From Acidiphilium sp. 37-60-79 (GTDB lineage Bacteria; Pseudomonadota; Alphaproteobacteria; Acetobacterales; Acetobacteraceae), in NCBI GenBank assembly GCA_002279355.1, contig NCBV01000030.1, forward strand, positions 1 through 52,997: a stretch of DNA of 52,997 nucleotides. The letters run 5' to 3'. Position numbers and translations under genes: made by a program. Below are positions 14,068 to 49,662 of this stretch, piece by piece; position 1 is the first letter of the stretch, and every line of letters starts with the position of its first letter. The notes beneath the pieces were generated by a model. That model made no database searches and had not been told where the DNA came from. It worked only from the letters and a program-made list of their open reading frames with translations.

Positions 14068-14517
14068 TCAGGGCTGAACGACCACCATGATCACAATAAT
14101 CACCATCAAAATCGTCGGCACCTCGTTGGCAATCCGGTAAAAACGCTCGGGCTTCGTATTCTGGTCATTGAGAAAATTCTTTCGCCATTTGGATAATGCG
14201 CCATGGAATCCACTCATGAAAATGACCGAAACAAATTTCACCCACCACCAAGGGGCGGACCATGAAATTGCCCCGGGCGTGAGAATCAGCAAAATTCCGA
14301 AGAACCAGGAAGAAATCATCGCGGGGGTCGCAATTTGCTTGAGCAGCCGACGTTCCATAACCTTAAACCGAGCCGATTCCACCGAGCCCGGTGCCACCTG
14401 ACAATGATACACGTAAAGTCGGGGCAAGTAGAACAACGCTGCCATCCACGCGATGATCGACATCACATGAAACGCGAGTTCCCACCGATAAAACGGTACT
14501 AAAGCTGCAATGGTCAT
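14068..14517 (-). CDS. hemJ: Protoporphyrinogen IX oxidase, HemJ type
   Basis: About 149 residues with four predicted membrane spans. It matches the HemJ (formerly UPF0093) family, which oxidises protoporphyrinogen IX to protoporphyrin IX in bacteria lacking HemG and HemY. Key landmarks are the first-span His in ELAFHVMSIIAWMA, the segment LPRLYVYH, and a Lys/Arg-rich cytoplasmic loop (GALSKWRKNF). The ATG at 14517 overlaps the hemH stop (ATGA), so this start is chosen over a longer in-frame one at 14547 or 14598. It is the last gene of hemE-hemH-hemJ. Confidence 0.9.
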   Translation of the reverse strand: MTIAALVPFYRWELAFHVMSIIAWMAALFYLPRLYVYHCQVAPGSVESARFKVMERRLLKQIATPAMISSWFFGILLILTPGAISWSAPWWWVKFVSVIFMSGFHGALSKWRKNFLNDQNTKPERFYRIANEVPTILMVIIVIMVVVQP

Positions 14518-15653
14518 GCGGTCTGCAATGCCCGATAGCGAGCCCATGGGCAATCGCCATGCTGCACTGAGCAAGCCCGACCGCCCTGATGCGAACATAA
14601 CCCATCACCACCAGCAACGGCCCGCTGCACGATATCGGCCAAGGCTGCGATGAAAGCTGGGTCCGAATTGGGCGCTGGCACTCGGTAATAGCCCGGTAGG
14701 TGCAAATGCTCGGCCACTTCGCGATATTCGATATCCAGTTCAACTAGCGTCTCGATATGCTCGGACACAAACGCAATCGGCACCACCAACACCGCCACCT
14801 GATCCTTGGCCGCCCGTTCCAACGCCTGCTCGGTTGAAGGTTCCAGCCATTGTTGCGGCGTTGCTCGCGATTGATAACAAACTTGATAATCCTCAACCCG
14901 GCCCGTACTCGCCGTGAGCGCCGCCATTACCGCCTCCGTGCAACGCTCCACCTCCTCCTGATAGGGGTCACCTGCCTTCACAATACTCTCGGGCAAGCCA
15001 TGGGCGGAGAATAACAGCCTGATTTTTGCGCCCGGTGGCAATTCCGCCCGCGCTTTCAACAATGTGGTTTCAACCAGCCGGGCAATCGCCGCAGCAAAGG
15101 CCGGATCATCAAACCAGCAACATAAGGTGGTCGTCGGTGCCACAAGTCCAATTTTTGCCGCTTGCTCATGCCAATCACGCAACGATGACCCCGTCGTGGT
15201 GGTTGAGAATTGCGGATAAAGCGGCAGAAGTAGAATCCGGTCCGGCGCAAATTTTTTCACTGCCGCCGCCGCTTCAGCGGCAAAAGGATGCCAGTAACGC
15301 ATGGCGACGAAGCATTTTGCGCCCGGTACAGCTGCCTCGAGCGCATTGGCCTGACCCTGGGTCAGCTCAAGCAGGGGCGATTTACCGCCCATCAGCGCAT
15401 AACCCGCCTCTGCCTTTTTCTGCGCCGATGCCGCAATCAGTCGGGCCAACCAGAACCGAATAAAAATCGGCGCACGAATAATCGCCGGATCCGAAAACAA
15501 ATTCACCCGAAATGGCTTGATCGACTCAACGCCATCGGGCCCGCCCAGATTAAACAGCACGATCGCAACGCGCTCTGCACCAGCCTTCACCAAATCGCGA
15601 GGCCCCTCAATCAGCGCATCGCCGGACAATTCGGTCATCGGAATAATATTCAT
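14514..15653 (-). CDS. hemH: Ferrochelatase
   Basis: A 379-residue enzyme that inserts Fe2+ into protoporphyrin IX, the last step to protoheme. Visible family features are the start of the fold VAIVLFNLGGPDG, the catalytic-His segment LLFSAHGLPESIV, and the late PIAFVSEHIETLVELDIEY with its conserved Glu residues. The N-terminus is somewhat longer than usual; ATG at 15653 overlaps the hemE stop (ATGA), and an alternative ATG is at 15638. It is translationally coupled to hemE before it and hemJ after it. Confidence 0.96.
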   Translation of the reverse strand: MNIIPMTELSGDALIEGPRDLVKAGAERVAIVLFNLGGPDGVESIKPFRVNLFSDPAIIRAPIFIRFWLARLIAASAQKKAEAGYALMGGKSPLLELTQGQANALEAAVPGAKCFVAMRYWHPFAAEAAAAVKKFAPDRILLLPLYPQFSTTTTGSSLRDWHEQAAKIGLVAPTTTLCCWFDDPAFAAAIARLVETTLLKARAELPPGAKIRLLFSAHGLPESIVKAGDPYQEEVERCTEAVMAALTASTGRVEDYQVCYQSRATPQQWLEPSTEQALERAAKDQVAVLVVPIAFVSEHIETLVELDIEYREVAEHLHLPGYYRVPAPNSDPAFIAALADIVQRAVAGGDGLCSHQGGRACSVQHGDCPWARYRALQTA

Positions 15654-16720
15654 GGGGCAGAAATAAGGTCTGGCGGCGATTCCTCAAGCGCACGAAGCCA
15701 TTTAACCAGGTCTGCGACATGCTCTGGCGGCGTTTCTGGCACAATCCCATGGCCCAGATTGAAAATATGGGGCCGCCCCGCCATGCCTCGCGCAATTCGC
15801 TCCACCGCGTGACGGAGAGCCTCGCCACCTGAACGGAGCAATAAAGGATCCAAATTCCCCTGCAAAGCCATTGGTTTTTCCAACAATTGCGCCACCAGCG
15901 CCGGGTCCGCAGCGGTATCAAGCGCAAGCGCGGAAATCCCAGTCTCTGCGGCATAAGGCAGGGCCATGACACCCGCTAAACGCGGAAAACCGATAATGCG
16001 CACCTCAGGGTGCGCATTGGTTACCGTCTCAACAATCCGTGCAGTCGGATGCATCACGTAGGCACGGAATAAATCAGGCGGCAGCATTCCGGCCCAGGAA
16101 TCGAACAGCATCACGCAATCGGCACCGTGCTCGATTTGCTGGCTCAAATACGTGATAGTCGCGGAGGTCACCAATTCGATTACGGCCGTCAGCAAACTAG
16201 GATTTTCATACGCCATCGCCCGGGTGCGCGGAAAATCCCCGCCCCGCCCATCGATCATATAGCACGCCACTGTAAACGGACTGCCAGCGAAGCCAATCAA
16301 CGTCGTTTCATCAGGCAACTGGGCGCGCACCCGCGAAACCGTCTCCATCACCGGCTCCGTCGCCGGAACCAAGCGCTCGGCTGACAACGCTGCCAAATCG
16401 GCCTCAGTCTCGATCGGCGATAGACGCGGCCCCTCGCCTTCAGCAAAGCGCAGGCTTTGCCCCATGGCCCAGGGCAAAATCAAAATATCACTGAACAAAA
16501 TCGCCGCATCAAAGCCGTACCGTCGCACCGGCTGCAGGGTCACTTCAGTCGCGAGACCCGGCGTGGTGCAGAGCGAGATGAAATTACCGGCCTCAGCCCG
16601 TAATTTCCGATATTCCGGCAAATACCGCCCCGCCTGGCGCATCAACCACACTGGCGGCGGCCATACAGCCTCACCGGCCAAAACTCTTAAAACCTTGCGA
16701 TCCGCCATTTTCCCGTTCAT
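15650..16720 (-). CDS. hemE: Uroporphyrinogen III decarboxylase
   Basis: A 356-residue enzyme that removes four carboxyl groups from uroporphyrinogen III to give coproporphyrinogen III. The diagnostic N-terminal signature PPVWLMRQAGRYLPEYR and the glycine-rich GFAGSPFTVACYMI region are present, as is the C-terminal FNLGHGIVPETPPEHV. Two starts are possible, ATG at 16720 (behind a GAGGGG very close by) and ATG at 16708. It is the first gene of the leftward heme operon and flanks the putative chromosome origin, a placement conserved in many alphaproteobacteria. Confidence 0.97.
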   Translation of the reverse strand: MNGKMADRKVLRVLAGEAVWPPPVWLMRQAGRYLPEYRKLRAEAGNFISLCTTPGLATEVTLQPVRRYGFDAAILFSDILILPWAMGQSLRFAEGEGPRLSPIETEADLAALSAERLVPATEPVMETVSRVRAQLPDETTLIGFAGSPFTVACYMIDGRGGDFPRTRAMAYENPSLLTAVIELVTSATITYLSQQIEHGADCVMLFDSWAGMLPPDLFRAYVMHPTARIVETVTNAHPEVRIIGFPRLAGVMALPYAAETGISALALDTAADPALVAQLLEKPMALQGNLDPLLLRSGGEALRHAVERIARGMAGRPHIFNLGHGIVPETPPEHVADLVKWLRALEESPPDLISAP

Positions 16721-17039
16721 TACCCCTCACTATAGACTCATTGAATGACTTTAAAGGAGTAGTGAAGATTCTAGTGCTGTTAATCATGGGGATTATCCAT
16801 GATCCACCATAATCCACAGAGTTTTCCACATCAGAAACATCCATACAACTATCTGAAAATATTTCATAAAATTATGTTTTTCCCGATAATTATGATCAGG
16901 CTGTAAAAATTATCCACAGTCATTTTCTGATCTGACTTATCCCCGTTGTGCGGCTGCGACGGCCAATCAGTCGAACTTATCCCCGTTGTTCGACGTTCCT
17001 GGATTTCTCATCCACAGGGTTTTGCGTCATTCTATCCCC
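16721..17039. other. oriC: Putative chromosomal origin of replication (oriC)
   Basis: A 319-base region between hemE and the PPDK regulatory gene, the same gene pair that flanks oriC in Caulobacter and many other alphaproteobacteria. It has a perfect DnaA box, TTATCCACA, at 16910-16918, and one-mismatch boxes at 16810-16818, 16822-16830 and 17008-17016. Weaker ones are at 16793-16801, 16937-16945 and 16977-16985. An AT-rich stretch at about 16855-16908 could be the unwinding element. A 15-bp direct repeat, ACTTATCCCCGTTGT, occurs at 16935-16949 and 16975-16989, exactly 40 bp apart. A GANTC methylation site is at 16768-16772. The heme operon and the PPDK-regulator gene also read away from it in both directions. 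Confidence 0.85.
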
Positions 17040-17906
17040 ATGCCCGAAAAGCGCCTCAACCTGCATCTTGTCTCCGACGCGACCGGCGATACGCTCAGTG
17101 CCGTTTCGCGCGCCGCACTTGCCCAATTTGAGGGCGCCGATATCCATATTCATCGCTGGAGCTTAATCCGCTCCCGCCTGCAACTTGAGCAGGTGTTTGA
17201 AGGGATTCAAGCCGAACCTGGACCAGTGCTGACCACGCTGATTGATCCGGCTCTTCGTCATGCGCTCGAAGAAGCCTGCACACGGCTTGGTCTGCGCTTG
17301 CTGCATATGCTCGACCCGGTATTTTCACTTTTGCAGGATGAACTCGGCGCACCCGCAGCGCAGCGTCCTGGTCGACAATATGTCCTCGATGCCGATTATT
17401 TCCGACGCATTGATGCCATGCATTACGTGCTTTCGCATGACGATGGTCAAGCCAGCCGCGGCCTTGCGAATGCAGATGTCATTTTGGTCGGCGTGTCGCG
17501 CTCATCGAAAACCCCCACCGCTTTCTACCTCGCTAATCGCGGGGTCAAAGCTGCGAATATCCCCCTCGTGCCCGATACCGTGCTGCCCGATGCACTGGCG
17601 GCCGAGACATGCCCGGTGGTTGGGCTGTTTGTTGACCTCGCACCTTTGATCGAAATTCGTCGGCACCGGTTGCGCCTGCTCGGCAGCGGCGAAGTTGGTG
17701 TGATCGCTGGTCAGTTGCATGATCGCTATATCGATGAGGATAATGTGAAAGCCGAATTACTCTGGGCCCGCCGCTTATGCACCCAGCGTGGCTGGCCGAT
17801 TATCAATGTAACCAGCCGCTCTATTGAGGAAACCGCCGCTGCGGTATTGCGCTATATGGAAATCTGGCAGCAACGCCACCACCCAACCCCCAGCCCATCC
17901 GCGTGA
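17040..17906 (+). CDS. Pyruvate, phosphate dikinase regulatory protein (bifunctional kinase/phosphorylase)
   Basis: About 288 residues of the DUF299/PPDK- or PEP-synthase-regulator family. These proteins use ADP to phosphorylate and inactivate pyruvate, phosphate dikinase (or PEP synthase) and Pi to reactivate it. The start [14 protein letters not shown] and the P-loop-like [18 protein letters not shown] are diagnostic. The ATG at 17040 ([13 protein letters not shown]) is chosen; the longer frame from 16986 would run into DnaA-box sequence. Its place next to oriC, opposite hemE, is an alphaproteobacterial hallmark. The maf, aroE, coaE and dnaQ genes that often follow it are absent here. Confidence 0.94.
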
Positions 17907-18055: not shown

Positions 18056-19033
18056 ATGAGCAGCAAGGCCATACGGATTCACACTCAAGGCGGACCCGAA
18101 GTTCTTCAATGGGAAAATGTTCCGACACCTGAACCCGGTCCAGGTGAAGTTCTCCTCCATCACGAAGCTGTCGGGCTCAACTATATCGATGTATATTTCC
18201 GGACCGGCCTCTATAAAATTCCACAACTCCCCGCGACCATTGGCCTCGAAGGGGCTGGTGTCGTTCGTGCGGTAGGCACCAATGTGACCGATCTTGCCGT
18301 CGGCGATCGGGTTGCCTATGCGGGCGGCCCGCTGGGTGCCTATGCGACTGAGCGAGTGATTGCCGCTGACCGCGTGGTCAAACTGCCGGACGCGATTGAT
18401 TTTCAAACCGGTGCAGCGATGATGCTGCAAGGCATGACCGCGCAATATCTGCTGCGCCGCACCTACCGGGTGCGTGCAGGCGAAACCATCCTGGTTCATG
18501 CCGCCGCCGGCGGTGTTGGTCTCATTTTATGCCAATGGGCGAGCCATCTCGGCGCGCGCGTGATTGGTGTGGTGTCGACCCCAGAAAAAGCCGAGCTTGC
18601 CCGCGCGCACGGCGCCGCACACGTGATTGTTGGCCATGACAACCTCGCCATCGAAATTCGCCGGTTCACCGAAGGGGCGATGGTGCCAGTCGTGTATGAT
18701 AGTGTCGGGCGCGACACCTTCACTGCCAGCCTCGATAGTCTCGCGCCACTCGGCCTGATGGTGAGTTATGGCAATGCGTCCGGTGCGGTTCCGCCCGTTG
18801 ATGTTGGCATGCTCGCCGCCAAGGGCAGTCTGTTTCTCACCCGCCCCACTTTGGCCACCTACACCGCGACCCGCGCTGATTTATTGGCGGTGACCAACGA
18901 TTTGTTCGAGGTGGTTGCCAAAGGAGCGGTGAAAATTCGCGTCAATCAAACCTTCCCGCTGAGCGAAGCCGCCGCCGCCCATCGCGCACTCGAAGCGCGG
19001 CAAACGACGGGCAGCACCGTTTTGCTTCCGTGA
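18056..19033 (+). CDS. Quinone oxidoreductase (NADPH, zeta-crystallin type)
   Basis: A 325-residue zinc-independent medium-chain dehydrogenase/reductase. It has the GroES-like N-terminal domain (AIRIHTQGGPEVLQWE; GLNYIDVYFRTGLY) and a Rossmann domain with HAAAGGVGLILCQWA. These enzymes reduce quinones by one electron from NADPH. The start is ATG 18056 with GGAG about 8 bases upstream; a longer frame from 18014 is less likely. The next gene begins within its stop codon (GTGA overlap), so the two are coupled. Confidence 0.92.
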   Translation: MSSKAIRIHTQGGPEVLQWENVPTPEPGPGEVLLHHEAVGLNYIDVYFRTGLYKIPQLPATIGLEGAGVVRAVGTNVTDLAVGDRVAYAGGPLGAYATERVIAADRVVKLPDAIDFQTGAAMMLQGMTAQYLLRRTYRVRAGETILVHAAAGGVGLILCQWASHLGARVIGVVSTPEKAELARAHGAAHVIVGHDNLAIEIRRFTEGAMVPVVYDSVGRDTFTASLDSLAPLGLMVSYGNASGAVPPVDVGMLAAKGSLFLTRPTLATYTATRADLLAVTNDLFEVVAKGAVKIRVNQTFPLSEAAAAHRALEARQTTGSTVLLP

Positions 19034-19860
19034 CCGAGCGGCGCGGCACGCCCCCCGGCCATCATCTTTTGATCGCCGGCACGGGGCGTTCGGGCACCTC
19101 GTTCCTGGTCAAATATTTGGATGCGCTCGGCTTCGCCACGCATTTTTCCCGGTTTGGCACGTATTCAAGCTGGGACGAAGCGGCGAATGCCGGTGCCGAG
19201 AATTTGCCGCTGCCAGCACTCGATCCGGATATGCCCTATGTGGTGAAATCACCTTGGGCCACCGAACTAACCGCATTTATTCATGAGGGCGTTTCCTTCA
19301 ATTTTTCTACAATAAGCTACGCAACCGGACGTCGTGACGGCGTGATGCTTCGCCGGCCAATGTGGCGTGGTTCGGCGCCGGGCGGCGTGGTTTTTTCGCT
19401 CCATCCGCTCGATCAGGCACGGATTCTCGCGCTGGGTCTTCATCATCTGCTCGAACGGCTGGTGGCGGCGGATATCCCGATCGTATTTTTGTCATTTCCG
19501 CGTCTGGCGCAGGATGCGGCCTATATGCATCAAAAACTAGCCCCGATTTTACCCCATGCGATTTCGCTGGACGAGGCCGAAGCGGCCCATGTGCGCATAG
19601 CGGATCCCGCGAAAATCCGCGTTGATCGCTCCCTTGCCGATCCGGCCATCGACGTGCTGGATCGTGAAGCACTCCGCCGCGAAATCGAGCGTCTGCACGG
19701 CGAAATCAACAGCCTCACCGAAGAGAAAATCACGCTTGCCGCGGAGCGTAAGACCCTGGCCGATCACGCCCGCGCCATTGAGACGAGCCGCATGTGGCGC
19801 GCCCTCGCGCCGCTCCGCCGCGCCCTGCACAGCCTGCGAGGGGGCGGCAATCGAGGCTGA
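19030..19860 (+). CDS. Sulfotransferase-like P-loop protein with C-terminal coiled coil
   Basis: A 276-residue protein that starts with GTG overlapping the upstream TGA. The segment LLIAGTGRSGTSFLVKYLDALG matches the 5'-phosphosulfate loop of sulfotransferases, which bind PAPS. The predicted acceptor is unknown. About residues 223-255 form a charged coiled coil (LRREIERLHGEINSLTEEKI), followed by a basic segment ending in RALHSLRGGG, which may attach it to a partner or membrane. There are no sulfate-activation genes in the window. Family is moderately sure; function is open. Confidence 0.7.
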   Translation: MTERRGTPPGHHLLIAGTGRSGTSFLVKYLDALGFATHFSRFGTYSSWDEAANAGAENLPLPALDPDMPYVVKSPWATELTAFIHEGVSFNFSTISYATGRRDGVMLRRPMWRGSAPGGVVFSLHPLDQARILALGLHHLLERLVAADIPIVFLSFPRLAQDAAYMHQKLAPILPHAISLDEAEAAHVRIADPAKIRVDRSLADPAIDVLDREALRREIERLHGEINSLTEEKITLAAERKTLADHARAIETSRMWRALAPLRRALHSLRGGGNRG

Positions 19861-19880
19861 TTCGATCGGATCAGGCCACC

Positions 19881-21374
19881 TCATCCAAATTTGTGCAACC
19901 CGATGGACTCGCCGACTCCCGAAAACGAAGCGCTGGCCTCAAACGATCTTATTCTTGGAATTCCGTTCAATTTATAGGGCTGTTTTTCGATCAATTTCTG
20001 GCAGCGAGTCAAAATTGGCTTGATATGATCCTTCATTGCGGACTCTACCTCATCCATCCATCCGGGCTTGCCGAAACTGGTCGCGAGCATGGAGAAAATC
20101 GTCGAATGATCGGACGTCAGAAGAAAATAAGCGCCTAAGACTGGTGCCTTATCGAAGACCGCGATCGTAATATTTTTGGCATCGCTCAGAATTTTTTTGA
20201 TCGATAAAAATACTTTTACCTGCAGGCCGAGCTTGATAATTGCGATAATTGTTTGAATCACAAATTTTACAATTTTAATGATTGGGGCAGCTGCAGCACC
20301 AGCGACGGTTCCATGCAGGGCTGCATTAACCGACAATGTTACAGTTTCGATAATTGTATCAATACTTGAATATTTAAGCTCTTCATCGAGTGAATCAATA
20401 ACGCCTCGCAGCGCTTCAGCCGGTTCACCGTCTTCAAACTGATGCTTGGAAAGCCGCGTCTGTATGGAATCATAGCTTGCTTTAGCAGTCGCCGCTGCCG
20501 CTTTAAGAGTTTTAAACCCTCCAACCACCAAGGAAACTACCGGGAGCGCCTCCCCTAAATGATCCAGATACGTGAACAAGGCCGTTGCTGGCGCCTCTTT
20601 GATGGTATCCGCACATGTTTGCAAGATATAGTTCTTGATTGCGGCAGCAATTTGGGCCGCTGTGGCCACCTTGCCGATATCAATGCCAGTGAGATCACTC
20701 ATTGCTTTAGCGGCTTCTGAAATTTCTTCCGTGTTGAGTTGTGTGGGGACTTTTTGCGCTGTCAAAATTTGCGCTGTTTTTCCTACATAGGCTGGATTTT
20801 GTACCCAATTTGGTTGCGGCTTGGGTTTGTCGAAAGGTAGCTTTGCTCCTGTCATTCTGGTTTTGGCACCATGAGCAAGATCGACCATACCACCGCCGAT
20901 TACGTCGCCAAAGATCGATTTCGTTTGATCTTCAATAAGTTTGCGCCCGTTTTTCAGCTCCGCGAATTCTTTAGTAATCGAGAATTTGTGCCCAAATTCA
21001 ACGGTGGCTTTAGAAAAGGCCGCCCTGAGAGTCTCACGGCGCATCTCCATCATATTTTTGAATGCCTGTTGCTCTTCAGGCGACATGGTAACGCTTTTGC
21101 TTAAAAAATTTGAAATGGTCGTCACGGGGTAATGAGGCGGTCGATTACGGTCACTATTTTCTGAACCCTGCCCCGGTTTCTCACGTCGCCAAGCGCGGTA
21201 TGCCGCCCCAACCTTATCAAGAGCGGATTTACTTCCGTTCGATTTTTCGTATTCGTGTATCGCATCATCGAGTTTACGAAGCGAACCGCTGCGCATTTTA
21301 CCCATGATACCGGTTTGATCCATCCAATCTTTATACTTTGGAACGAAAGCTGCATGAGTTTTCAACCCAACCAT
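19881..21374 (-). CDS. Orphan 497-residue protein of unknown function
   Basis: Not recognised. The N-terminal 90 residues contain helical segments such as RKLDDAIHEYEKS and AAYRAWRREKPGQG...DRNR. A similar pattern of short helices before an SxRN-like motif is used as a spacer in some bacterial secreted effectors, but that comparison is from memory and unproven. Ala-rich helices and long hydrophobic stretches lie at about residues 268-292 and 345-400 (AALHGTVAGAAAAPI; VIQTIIAIIKLGLQV), suggesting membrane interaction. No signal peptide is seen. Codons are visibly more AT-rich than its neighbours, hinting at transfer. It converges on the sulfotransferase-like gene and stands alone with no apparent immunity gene. 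Confidence 0.6.
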   Translation of the reverse strand: MVGLKTHAAFVPKYKDWMDQTGIMGKMRSGSLRKLDDAIHEYEKSNGSKSALDKVGAAYRAWRREKPGQGSENSDRNRPPHYPVTTISNFLSKSVTMSPEEQQAFKNMMEMRRETLRAAFSKATVEFGHKFSITKEFAELKNGRKLIEDQTKSIFGDVIGGGMVDLAHGAKTRMTGAKLPFDKPKPQPNWVQNPAYVGKTAQILTAQKVPTQLNTEEISEAAKAMSDLTGIDIGKVATAAQIAAAIKNYILQTCADTIKEAPATALFTYLDHLGEALPVVSLVVGGFKTLKAAAATAKASYDSIQTRLSKHQFEDGEPAEALRGVIDSLDEELKYSSIDTIIETVTLSVNAALHGTVAGAAAAPIIKIVKFVIQTIIAIIKLGLQVKVFLSIKKILSDAKNITIAVFDKAPVLGAYFLLTSDHSTIFSMLATSFGKPGWMDEVESAMKDHIKPILTRCQKLIEKQPYKLNGIPRIRSFEASASFSGVGESIGLHKFG

Positions 21375-21572
21375 ATCGATTTCCTCCTAAAATTCAGGTA
21401 TTCGGGGCAAAGTAAATATCATTACCCGTTATGATGTGCAATCAATTAAAGTTCGCGTTGCGGAGTTAAGGTGATTCAACCGATTTCGCGTCGAACAAGG
21501 TTCTGATAGAAGACTGTGACTGCAGAATCACACAACAATCTCGCCGCGTGAAATTCGTGCGGTTTCATCTAA

Positions 21573-21601
21573 CTGCCACCAAAACGTCATTCCTCTGTCA
21601 T
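21573..21601. promoter_or_regulatory. Pho-box-like triple repeat upstream of the TonB-receptor cluster
   Basis: Three 7-bp units on an 11-bp period: CTGCCAC (21573), ACGTCAT (21584) and a perfect CTGTCAT (21595), each separated by 4 bases. PhoB recognises CTGTCAT repeats at exactly this period. It lies about 50 bases before the start of the receptor gene. PhoB control is an inference supported by the downstream phosphoesterase. Confidence 0.6.
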
Positions 21602-21649
21602 CCAATCTCATTAGACGGTGCCCAATAGATACTTAAAAAGGGGACATCA

Positions 21650-23962
21650 ATGTCAAAATTTCATCTCCTGCTTGGCACCGCGCTGAGTGGGATCATCGTC
21701 GGCCTCGCGCCGCTGGCGCACGCTCAAACCGTGGTCACGGATAATAGCGCCACCCCCGTCAAAATCGGCACGATTTCAAAGTCCGCTGCCCGCACCGCGC
21801 AATCGCGCATCCCCAAAAAAGCGCCCTATACCGTCAGCATCATCGGCAAACAGCAAATCAAACTCGCCTCCCCCGCAGCCAACGCGCAAACACTGCTCAA
21901 CCAACTGCCTTCGGTGGTTGCGGTATCTTCCGGGCCGAATGGCATGCGCACCAACATTCAGTTCCGAGCCTTTAATGACGGACAATTTTCGGAAACTTAT
22001 GGCGGCGTCGCGCTGAATGATATTTTCAATGCAGGCGTCACGGGGTCAGCTTCCGCCCGCAATAATCAACTCGTGACATTGGATGATTTTTCCCAGGTCG
22101 AAGCGTTCCGTGGCGTGAACAACCCAGCGGTCAATTCATACAATTCTCTCGGCGGCACTATCAATTATGTCCCGCGTGAAGCCCCCGCCCTCGCGGGCGG
22201 TCAGGCTGGGCTGAGCTACGGCAGCTTTGACTCATTTGGTGCTCATGTCCGCGTTGCTACCGGCGATATCGATGGCTTACGCCAGCTCCTCTCGATCCGC
22301 CGTAACGTCGATGGTTCATGGCTGAAAAATGCCAAGGACCAAAACAACCATCTATTCTATACGTTCAATGCACCCATTTTCGGCGGTACGGGCAAAGTCT
22401 ATGGCTATTTTCTCTATAACAAAAATCGTGGCCTCACCCCGCACTCAGTGCCGCTCGCGCTGGTCCAACAATACGGCCCCAGCTATCAATTTCCGACCAA
22501 CGACACTTATTCCGAAAATATTGATACCAACTATCTCGCGGTGCTTGGCGCCAGCCAACAATTCACCCCGATTTTTGCAGGCGACCTGAAGTTCTTCTTT
22601 GGCGCCGACAACTATACCCGCACGTCGTTCAGCAATCCCTACATGCTGCAAAGTGCGACGATGCCTTATCAGCTCCCGAATGCGCCAGCGACCTTCCCCT
22701 ACTCGCCCTATCCCGGCCAAACGAGCTATGACCCGATTGCCCAGTTCGGTTCCTATCCGGTCGGCGCACAATATCATTTCTATGGGTATTACGGCACTGA
22801 AATTGGCGTGCAGCCGAAATTCACCCTAGATCTACCCCACAACACGATCGTATTTGGCGGAAACCTGACCTCGGGCCATCTACACTCGCGCGAATACTGG
22901 TACGGCACTTCGCCGGTGCCGCAGATCCCCGGCTATAATAATGCCTGGAACGAACATGATCTGCGCACCCTCGCCTCGGCGTATATTCAAGACAAAATTT
23001 CGCTGTTGAATGACCGCCTCAAAATCACCCCTGGCGTGAAATATCTCTACGCCATCACCAAAGATCATGATGGTCTCGGGTTTTTCTATCCGATCTCCGG
23101 GAGTGTTTCGAACACGGCTCATTATCTGTCGCCCACCGTGGGGGCCAGTCTCGCCATCACACCGCAACTCACCGCCTACGCCGCCTATGGCCAAAACATC
23201 AAGTTTCCAGACATTAGCGCTTATTATGGCAACGTCGCTTTGCAAAACGCCGCCGGGCAATATGTGGTTACGCCGCTCCATGTGAGCCCGGAATATGTGA
23301 AGGATTACGAGGTTGGCCTGCGTTATACGCTGCACGGGGTAACCGCAGCGGTCGATTATTACCGCGAGGATTTCTCCAACACCTTCATCACCTCGACCAG
23401 CCCGATCACGGGCACCTCAACCACCAGCAATGGCGGCAATTCTCGGTATGATGGTGAAGAGTTGCAGGTTGTAGGACAGATCGGTCGAATTGGCTCAATC
23501 CCCGGTCAATGGTCGAGCTATTTCAACTACGCGCATAATAATGCGGTGTTTCTCTCTGGCTTCAGCTCGGTCTATGCGGGCACCGTTACCGCCGGTCAGC
23601 CCTTGGCGAATGTGCCCAATAACCTGCTGAGCGCGGGCGTGACGTGGGCGCATCAAGGCTGGCTTGCTGATGTCAATGCGCGCTATGTCGGCTCGGAATA
23701 TCTGCAGCAAGGCTTTGCTGGCACACCCACCAGCCTGCAATCGCCGCCCTATTTCTTGCTCAACGCCACGGTGCAAAAAACCATCCCGGTGCATCTAGGC
23801 CAAGTCAGCGGTCTGCGGCTGTCACTCAATCTCGATAATATTCTCAACCGTCGCTACTACACAGTGGACAATATCTATCAAGACTATAACGGCAACAATT
23901 ATCAATCAGTGCTGCTCGGTGCGCCGCGCGCGGTTTATTTCAGCGTGACGGCGCTGTTTTAG
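21650..23962 (+). CDS. TonB-dependent outer membrane receptor
   Basis: A 770-residue protein. The signal peptide is about residues 1-26 (LAPLAHAQ). A plug domain follows (LLNQLPSVVAVSSGPNGMRT...IQFRAFND), then a long aromatic-rich barrel ending in the outer-membrane signature SVTALF with a terminal Phe. The last-repeat signature LRLSLNLDNILNRRYY is typical of siderophore- or other ligand-type receptors. Just downstream are a dedicated TonB and a phosphoesterase, so the ligand may be a phosphorylated compound rather than iron. Length is normal. The start is ATG 21650 after a purine-rich AAAAAGGGG. Inference on substrate only. Confidence 0.92.
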   Translation: MSKFHLLLGTALSGIIVGLAPLAHAQTVVTDNSATPVKIGTISKSAARTAQSRIPKKAPYTVSIIGKQQIKLASPAANAQTLLNQLPSVVAVSSGPNGMRTNIQFRAFNDGQFSETYGGVALNDIFNAGVTGSASARNNQLVTLDDFSQVEAFRGVNNPAVNSYNSLGGTINYVPREAPALAGGQAGLSYGSFDSFGAHVRVATGDIDGLRQLLSIRRNVDGSWLKNAKDQNNHLFYTFNAPIFGGTGKVYGYFLYNKNRGLTPHSVPLALVQQYGPSYQFPTNDTYSENIDTNYLAVLGASQQFTPIFAGDLKFFFGADNYTRTSFSNPYMLQSATMPYQLPNAPATFPYSPYPGQTSYDPIAQFGSYPVGAQYHFYGYYGTEIGVQPKFTLDLPHNTIVFGGNLTSGHLHSREYWYGTSPVPQIPGYNNAWNEHDLRTLASAYIQDKISLLNDRLKITPGVKYLYAITKDHDGLGFFYPISGSVSNTAHYLSPTVGASLAITPQLTAYAAYGQNIKFPDISAYYGNVALQNAAGQYVVTPLHVSPEYVKDYEVGLRYTLHGVTAAVDYYREDFSNTFITSTSPITGTSTTSNGGNSRYDGEELQVVGQIGRIGSIPGQWSSYFNYAHNNAVFLSGFSSVYAGTVTAGQPLANVPNNLLSAGVTWAHQGWLADVNARYVGSEYLQQGFAGTPTSLQSPPYFLLNATVQKTIPVHLGQVSGLRLSLNLDNILNRRYYTVDNIYQDYNGNNYQSVLLGAPRAVYFSVTALF

Positions 23963-49586: not shown

Positions 49587-49662
49587 TGGTGGAGCTGAGG
49601 GGAATCGAACCCCTGACCTCCTCATTGCGAACGAGGCGCTCTCCCAACTGAGCTACAGCCCC
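49587..49662 (-). tRNA. tRNA-Ala (anticodon CGC)
   Basis: A 76-base cloverleaf. The acceptor stem starts GGGGCTG and ends CAGCTCC with the 3' CCA encoded, including the G3-U70 pair that marks alanine tRNA. The D arm GCTCAGTTGGGAGAGC and T arm AGGGGTTCGATTCCCCT are canonical. The anticodon loop is TTCGCAA, giving anticodon CGC for codon GCG. It lies just upstream of rsmB. Confidence 0.97.

Follow-up and report, generated by a model that had tools for sequence, protein, structure and literature searches.

The intergenic gap of 319 bp between hemE and the DUF299 gene is probably the chromosomal replication origin (oriC) of an uncultured Acetobacteraceae bacterium, of the hemE-linked alphaproteobacterial kind. 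We regard this as the best reading because the gap carries the only conserved DnaA-box array that was found, occupies the position of known origins, has parS near it, and is accompanied in one complete relative (G089) by a two-arm skew. The window, that is, the whole stretch of 52,997 nucleotides that was analysed, is an entire contig (C6) of a 3.07-Mb assembly in 98 contigs. As an oriC, the gap would probably be an ordinary member of an already known origin kind, because relatives would likewise start replication there.

The hemE–DUF299 gap and its elements

The candidate oriC (16721–17039, unstranded; GC 0.40), recognized by its DnaA-box cluster and its conservation, lies between two diverging genes. 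One is hemE, encoding uroporphyrinogen decarboxylase (15650–16720, minus strand; TIGR01464, 378 bits), which is followed by hemH (14514–15653) and then by hemJ (14068–14598). The other is the DUF299/COG1806 gene for the PPDK–PEP synthase regulator (PpsR; 17040–17906, plus strand, ATG at 17040; PF03618, 276 bits; NF003742). The sequence-only reading had described a 319-base gap with outward-reading hemE and PPDK-regulator genes, and the coordinates, the strands, and the TIGR01464 and PF03618 matches agree with it. The hemE and DUF299 promoters probably both lie within the gap; a promoter scan gave 2 sites against 1.1 expected and was uninformative. By HemE, two metagenome assemblies, ZJ5.bin18 (95%) and SKS3.bin60 (74%), are the closest named relatives, followed by Acetobacteraceae. 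Elsewhere in the window, the GC content dips to 0.48–0.53 at 19000–22000, a patch that is perhaps foreign DNA; a 497-aa gene in it (19881–21374), which precedes a TonB-dependent receptor gene, matched nothing in Pfam or NCBIfam at E 0.001. An Rfam scan gave one tRNA (49590–49662), which is unrelated to the question of the gap.

DnaA boxes were scored by their mismatches to TTATCCACA, and 1000 dinucleotide shuffles of the gap served as the background. The gap contains one perfect box, four boxes at ≤ 1 mismatch, and nine at ≤ 2 mismatches, while the shuffle means are 0.014, 0.148, and 1.64, respectively. A perfect box arose in 14 of the 1000 shuffles, and none of them had four boxes at ≤ 1 mismatch or nine at ≤ 2. 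The gap is the densest DnaA-box stretch within the window, and eight of its nine boxes share the same orientation. The perfect box TTATCCACA is located at 16910–16918, and the boxes with one mismatch are located at 16810–16818 (TAATCCACA), 16822–16830 (TTTTCCACA), and 17008–17016 (TCATCCACA), all on the plus strand; the earlier claim of one perfect and three one-mismatch boxes is thereby borne out. The claim of three weaker boxes was right as to their presence but not as to their number, which is five at two mismatches: three are at 16787 (minus strand), 16793 (plus), and 16800 (plus), and two are box-like TTATCCCCG on the plus strand, at 16937–16945 in the first copy of the repeat TTATCCCCGTTGT and at 16977–16985 in the second.

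In an alignment of 10 gaps, the box columns are preserved from the window to Acidocella. The column of the box at 16822 is TTWTCCACA in all but one of the 10 gaps, that of the second TTATCCCCG copy is TWATCCMCG in all 10, and the perfect box was also placed in this alignment; the box at 17008 is present only in the window and its near relative ZJ5.bin18. The leftmost conserved element (16776–16791, minus strand) is an inverted DnaA box, CTGTGGATAACGGGG, in Acidocella, G063, and G140, and is decayed in the window, where its position and its three mismatches were determined by reading. The AT-richest part of the gap (16841–16900, unstranded; 75–80% AT in 40-bp windows), which agrees with the AT-rich stretch described before and is a candidate unwinding element by its composition, is flanked by the box at 16822 and the perfect box. 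One GANTC site had also been claimed; such a site exists, but there are two (16735 and 16767), and their 4 strand-hits against 2.2 in the shuffles are barely above chance. If the gap acts as an origin, DnaA-ATP would fill the box array, with the perfect box as its anchor, and would open the AT-rich stretch around 16841–16900, where the helicase would be loaded and two forks launched.

The oriCs of Caulobacter crescentus (Cori) and Rickettsia prowazekii are flanked by hemE and COG1806, according to the available text of PMC1914354. As far as that text describes them, the gap resembles these origins in its flanking genes, its intergenic site, its several DnaA boxes, and its AT-rich stretch. It differs from them in three respects. 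One is that the CtrA site TTAA-N7-TTAA does not occur in the gap in strict form (one loose site, 0.58 in the shuffles), another is that the IHF site WATCAN5WTR does not occur there (0.15 in the shuffles), and the last is that the skew of the genus shows no switch at the gap. Because the CtrA and IHF sites were not found, we class the gap among the hemE-linked oriCs rather than the Caulobacter-regulated ones.

Conservation of the array and linkage to parS

Three duplicates (L034, L035, and L088) were removed before counting. The family Acetobacteraceae yielded 39 distinct hemE–DUF299 loci, the window included. In all 39, the genes diverge from a gap of 258–456 bp, and every gap exceeds its own shuffles at ≤ 2 mismatches (173 boxes in total against 25.6 expected); at ≤ 1 mismatch, the 39 gaps hold 66 boxes against 2.0 expected. 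A second set consisted of 68 loci (among L037–L111), mostly from Gluconobacter, Acetobacter, Bombella, and relatives, that have no DUF299 gene in the flank examined. The window is unlike these loci in retaining the hemE–DUF299 pair and like them in box enrichment directly upstream of hemE: in the 300 bp upstream of hemE, the 68 loci have 69 boxes at ≤ 1 mismatch against 5.1 expected, and two-mismatch boxes are above the shuffles in 59 of the 68. The control region 700–1000 bp upstream of hemE showed no enrichment in the same loci (25 two-mismatch boxes against 31.5). The G089 genome has the order hemE, gap, DUF299, with two perfect boxes, and, unlike the window, it retains maf, leuS, lptE, holA, parBA, gidBA, and trmE within 15 kb, as judged by reading the translations.

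The gap also holds the best box cluster among 1.41 Mb of the 4.2 Mb of G131, a member of the same genus, and among 20 stretches of 20 kb of G089. In the window's own genome, 100 of the 110 exact TTWTNCACA sites were listed, and two or more of them lie within 320 bp only at the gap and at C25:27.7 kb. The latter falls within a predicted gene and was ruled out as a rival cluster, so that no rival intergenic cluster was found among these 100 of 110 sites. The DnaA protein of this genome looks normal, with the GNRDHTTVMHA stretch intact, and a GcrA gene is present.

The site search used the parS consensus. Among the matches listed, parS lies ≤ 100 kb from hemE/DUF299 in 17 of the 18 genomes that have both on one contig (G119, G131, G085, G113, G013, G140, G098, G031, G039, G084, G144, G011, G027, G089, G134, G117, and G020); in the exception, G001, the nearest listed site is 235 kb away. 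Short contigs partly force such nearness, and contigs longer than 1 Mb give the real distance test: parS is nearby in all eight that were listed (G131, G144, G011, G027, G089, G134, G117, and G020). The count leaves out the many genomes, the window's own included, in which parS and hemE/DUF299 lie on different contigs, those with no match (G041 and G057 among others), and unlisted ones (e.g., G023 and G042); an exact parS site is absent in 55 of the 150 genomes. Where DUF299 is distant from hemE (G144, G117, and G020), TGTTTCACGTGRAACA sites are found near hemE among the matches listed, and in G144 one variant site, TGTTGCACGTGCAACA, lies at a distance of 7 kb from the DUF299 gene. In the window's own genome, dnaA (contig C59), gid-par (contig C23), and parS with a ParA-like gene sit on contigs other than that of the window. 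A second exact parS occurs at C90:29607 in G000 and at C34:177501 in G085, and within 17–20 kb around it, ParA and ParB were not recognized by eye among the predicted genes.

Strand polarity and rearrangement around the gap

By GC skew, the complete chromosome of G089 (2.74 Mb) divides cleanly into two arms, in contrast to the window. All 11 stretches sampled in the first half (0 to 1.37 Mb) have a positive GC skew and all 9 sampled in the second half (1.485–2.585 Mb) a negative one, which places the switch between 2.585 Mb and the initial 20 kb. The gap of G089, at 2.6–3.0 kb, is within this interval of < 0.18 Mb from 2.585 Mb to the record start. In the first 20 kb, the KOPS octamers are 4/4 plus from 4.2 kb on, and this includes the stretch ahead of gid-par.

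For the genus of the window, octamers derived de novo from G131 were replaced by the published AIMS polar octamers, as given in the available text of PMC3751514. The window has a negative GC skew both left and right of the gap, and its polar octamers show no switch (left, 1 plus/8 minus; right, 3 plus/23 minus). In G131 (contig C18, 3.64 Mb), GC skew and polar octamers reach their minimum at 0.26–0.27 Mb, some 0.5 Mb away from the gap if the contig ends join. The KOPS arms of G131 are 35/9 and 11/56 (plus/minus), the mirrored motif giving 36/19 and 26/31, and the mean skew of the arms is nearly alike. The KOPS/octamer terminus switch, at 1.57–1.64 Mb, lies nearly opposite the gap if the contig is the whole circle. 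In the 150 kb on the hemE side, KOPS are directed at the gap (8 plus/24 minus; mirrored motif, 12/12). A switch at the gap of G131, seen in 40 sparse stretches, was dropped after finer sampling. In G085, where the gap is at 100.6 kb, the octamer switch is displaced by about 40–60 kb toward the hemE side, and the octamers right of the gap are 25/10, as expected; the four-fold skew changes sign near 30 kb and again near 123 kb. A clear switch at the gap was found in none of nine other loci with profiles of 20–40 kb, among which G063 and G089 lean weakly in the expected direction and G021 and G099 have one polarity throughout. G057 has almost no GC skew, and its KOPS arms are compatible with an origin near the record start without resolving its position. 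Thus a GC-skew shift at the locus is absent in the window, G085, and G131, and in G089 the shift falls inside the interval of < 0.18 Mb. A dif search of eight genomes with an E. coli-like consensus gave one weak match in one of them and was uninformative.

Two further observations concern these genomes. From about 3.55 Mb to 0.18 Mb, G131 C18 has a long stretch of near-zero mean skew, in part with lower GC, which may be acquired DNA; a weak PF00308 match at position 2547 is, by reading, maybe a transposon helper ATPase. In G085 C49 (L246–L252), GGGNAGGG occurs on both strands 45 bp apart in an element present 10 times in 136 kb, including one copy close to the DUF299 stop (101.7 kb) and another close to a skew change (122.9 kb); this element is a REP-like repeat that inflates KOPS counts.

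The four-fold skew of the genus reaches 0.4–0.7 with either sign across tens of kb. The patches alternate in sign in the window, in G131 C18 (L112–L191), and in G085 C49 (L246–L252), nearly independently of the KOPS arm. The four-fold skew agrees between the gene strands (r = 0.57, 146 bins), and the T/A skew barely tracks it (r = 0.16, 263 bins). A regular sawtooth of about 90 kb was ruled out by the irregular 5-kb profile. A special mutational process was likewise rejected as the source of the G/C exchanges that separate the window from ZJ5.bin18, because the four-fold sites are near saturation (382 of 802 agree).

Across the 39 loci, of which L030, L068, and L044 are examples, the four-fold coding skews of hemE and DUF299 are anticorrelated (r = − 0.77; as low in 0 of 5000 permutations), and therefore the polarity passes through the gap. 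The signs are opposite in 11 of the 15 strongly skewed loci, with an extreme of 0.77/− 0.82 in L030. Since a lasting bidirectional origin should leave both outward flanking genes G-rich, this anticorrelation counts against one. In the 24 weakly skewed loci, the two genes show a slight mean excess of G (hemE, 0.066; DUF299, 0.080; both positive in 14 of the 24), which fits an origin between the two genes. A block of G099 spanning some 30 kb, in which the old gene order is kept (maf beside DUF299 and rho past hemE, named by reading), has one strong polarity across the gap, and the switch is about 5.5 kb off on the DUF299 side. If the asymmetry reports fork direction, a fork passed through the gap in such lineages; should the gap be the origin, this asymmetry is otherwise caused or is a relic of older positions.

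Rearrangement is visible around the gap. Comparison of the window with G131 shows an inversion of the hemJ-hemE–DUF299-qor core with respect to three neighbour genes. The ffh-trmD-rplS-leuCDB group (ffh and trmD named by NCBIfam, rplS and leuCDB by reading) is 23–30 kb from the gap in the window and about 480 kb away in G131, and the sign of the coding skew is opposite in 4 of the 5 genes compared. We tentatively suggest that frequent rearrangement near the origin, together with an asymmetry decoupled from the present fork direction, might account for the missing switch in the genus. A clear skew shift is also lacking in Wolbachia (PMC1914354) and in Methylocystis SC2 (PMC3794950), and the former source counts the shift among seven origin elements that are helpful and not all necessary, in the available text of each.

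The origin proposed in the sequence-only reading thus has in its favour the position, the anatomy, the conserved boxes, parS, and the G089 skew, and against it the genus without a switch and the minimum elsewhere in G131. That reading had named a skew minimum elsewhere in the chromosome as evidence against an origin here; G131 has one at about 0.27 Mb, whereas the switch interval of G089 holds the locus. The proposal is neither refuted nor fully confirmed, because the polarity of G131 is a patchwork and rearrangements surround the gap.

Alternative start sites

A different reading, which we consider unlikely, sees in the gap a conserved region where DnaA binds to control hemE and DUF299, or else a former origin, with the forks of the genus starting elsewhere, for example in the vicinity of trmE-gidA-gidB-parAB or at about 0.27 Mb in G131. 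In its favour, the polarity does not switch at the gap of G000, G085, or G131. Also possibly in its favour are the minus-to-plus changes of the four-fold skew a few kb from all five exact parS loci in these three genus members (G000 C23:63.0 kb and C90:29.6 kb; G085 C49:126.5 kb and C34:177.5 kb; G131 C18:3491.5 kb, where the change is weak). However, G131 and G085 have additional skew changes at places without an exact parS. The gid-par loci carry single boxes or loose pairs at most (G000 C23:67960/68154; G131 3479417/3479457 and 3481734/3481791), and in G085 C49 no box was found within 5 kb of gid-par. Moreover, the boxes upstream of hemE are conserved family-wide, also without an adjoining DUF299, and both the skew and the KOPS of G089 point to hemE.

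Rather less probable still, in our estimate, is that the forks of the clade also start away from the conserved array, or do not use it as a start. This reading arises because the composition runs unbroken through the array and because minus-to-plus changes occur near parS and elsewhere, up to hundreds of kb off. If true, the origin could be displaced or each chromosome could have several start regions, and the old oriC could be retained as a DnaA-binding element.

As far as the available texts go, predictions for Acetobacter pasteurianus 386B (PMC3751514) and Acetobacter cerevisiae KSO5 (PMC13209655) put the origin near or adjacent to dnaA, and that of KSO5 has at least seven DnaA boxes. An Acetobacteraceae origin at hemE is not stated in the available text of PMC1914354, PMC4686929, PMC3751514, PMC2765452, PMC13209655, or PMC3794950, in a search outside which most subscription literature lay. 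For the present genome, we nevertheless judge a dnaA origin on C59 very improbable: just two one-mismatch boxes (C59:22001 and 27249, the latter inside the dnaA frame) lie within 5 kb of dnaA. In G089, 185 kb separate dnaA from the gap and dnaA falls beyond the skew-switch interval, and the distance from dnaA to hemE is at least 180 kb in 11 of the 12 genomes with both on one contig, the exception being G057 (about 34 kb, across the record start). Finally, the gap is AT-richer than its flanking DNA (60% AT against 35 to 52% across 2-kb windows of the contig, which stands in for the genome), yet chance matches in an AT-rich promoter gap can practically be dismissed, since no shuffle attained the numbers of boxes seen at ≤ 1 or ≤ 2 mismatches and since all 39 gaps carry such boxes.

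The mismatch between the array and the strand polarity is a caution for skew-based origin calls. Within Acetobacteraceae, the hemE-side DnaA array persists even where DUF299 no longer adjoins. If the gap is the oriC, as we think probable, the start of replication would be fixed for an uncultured lineage of this family.
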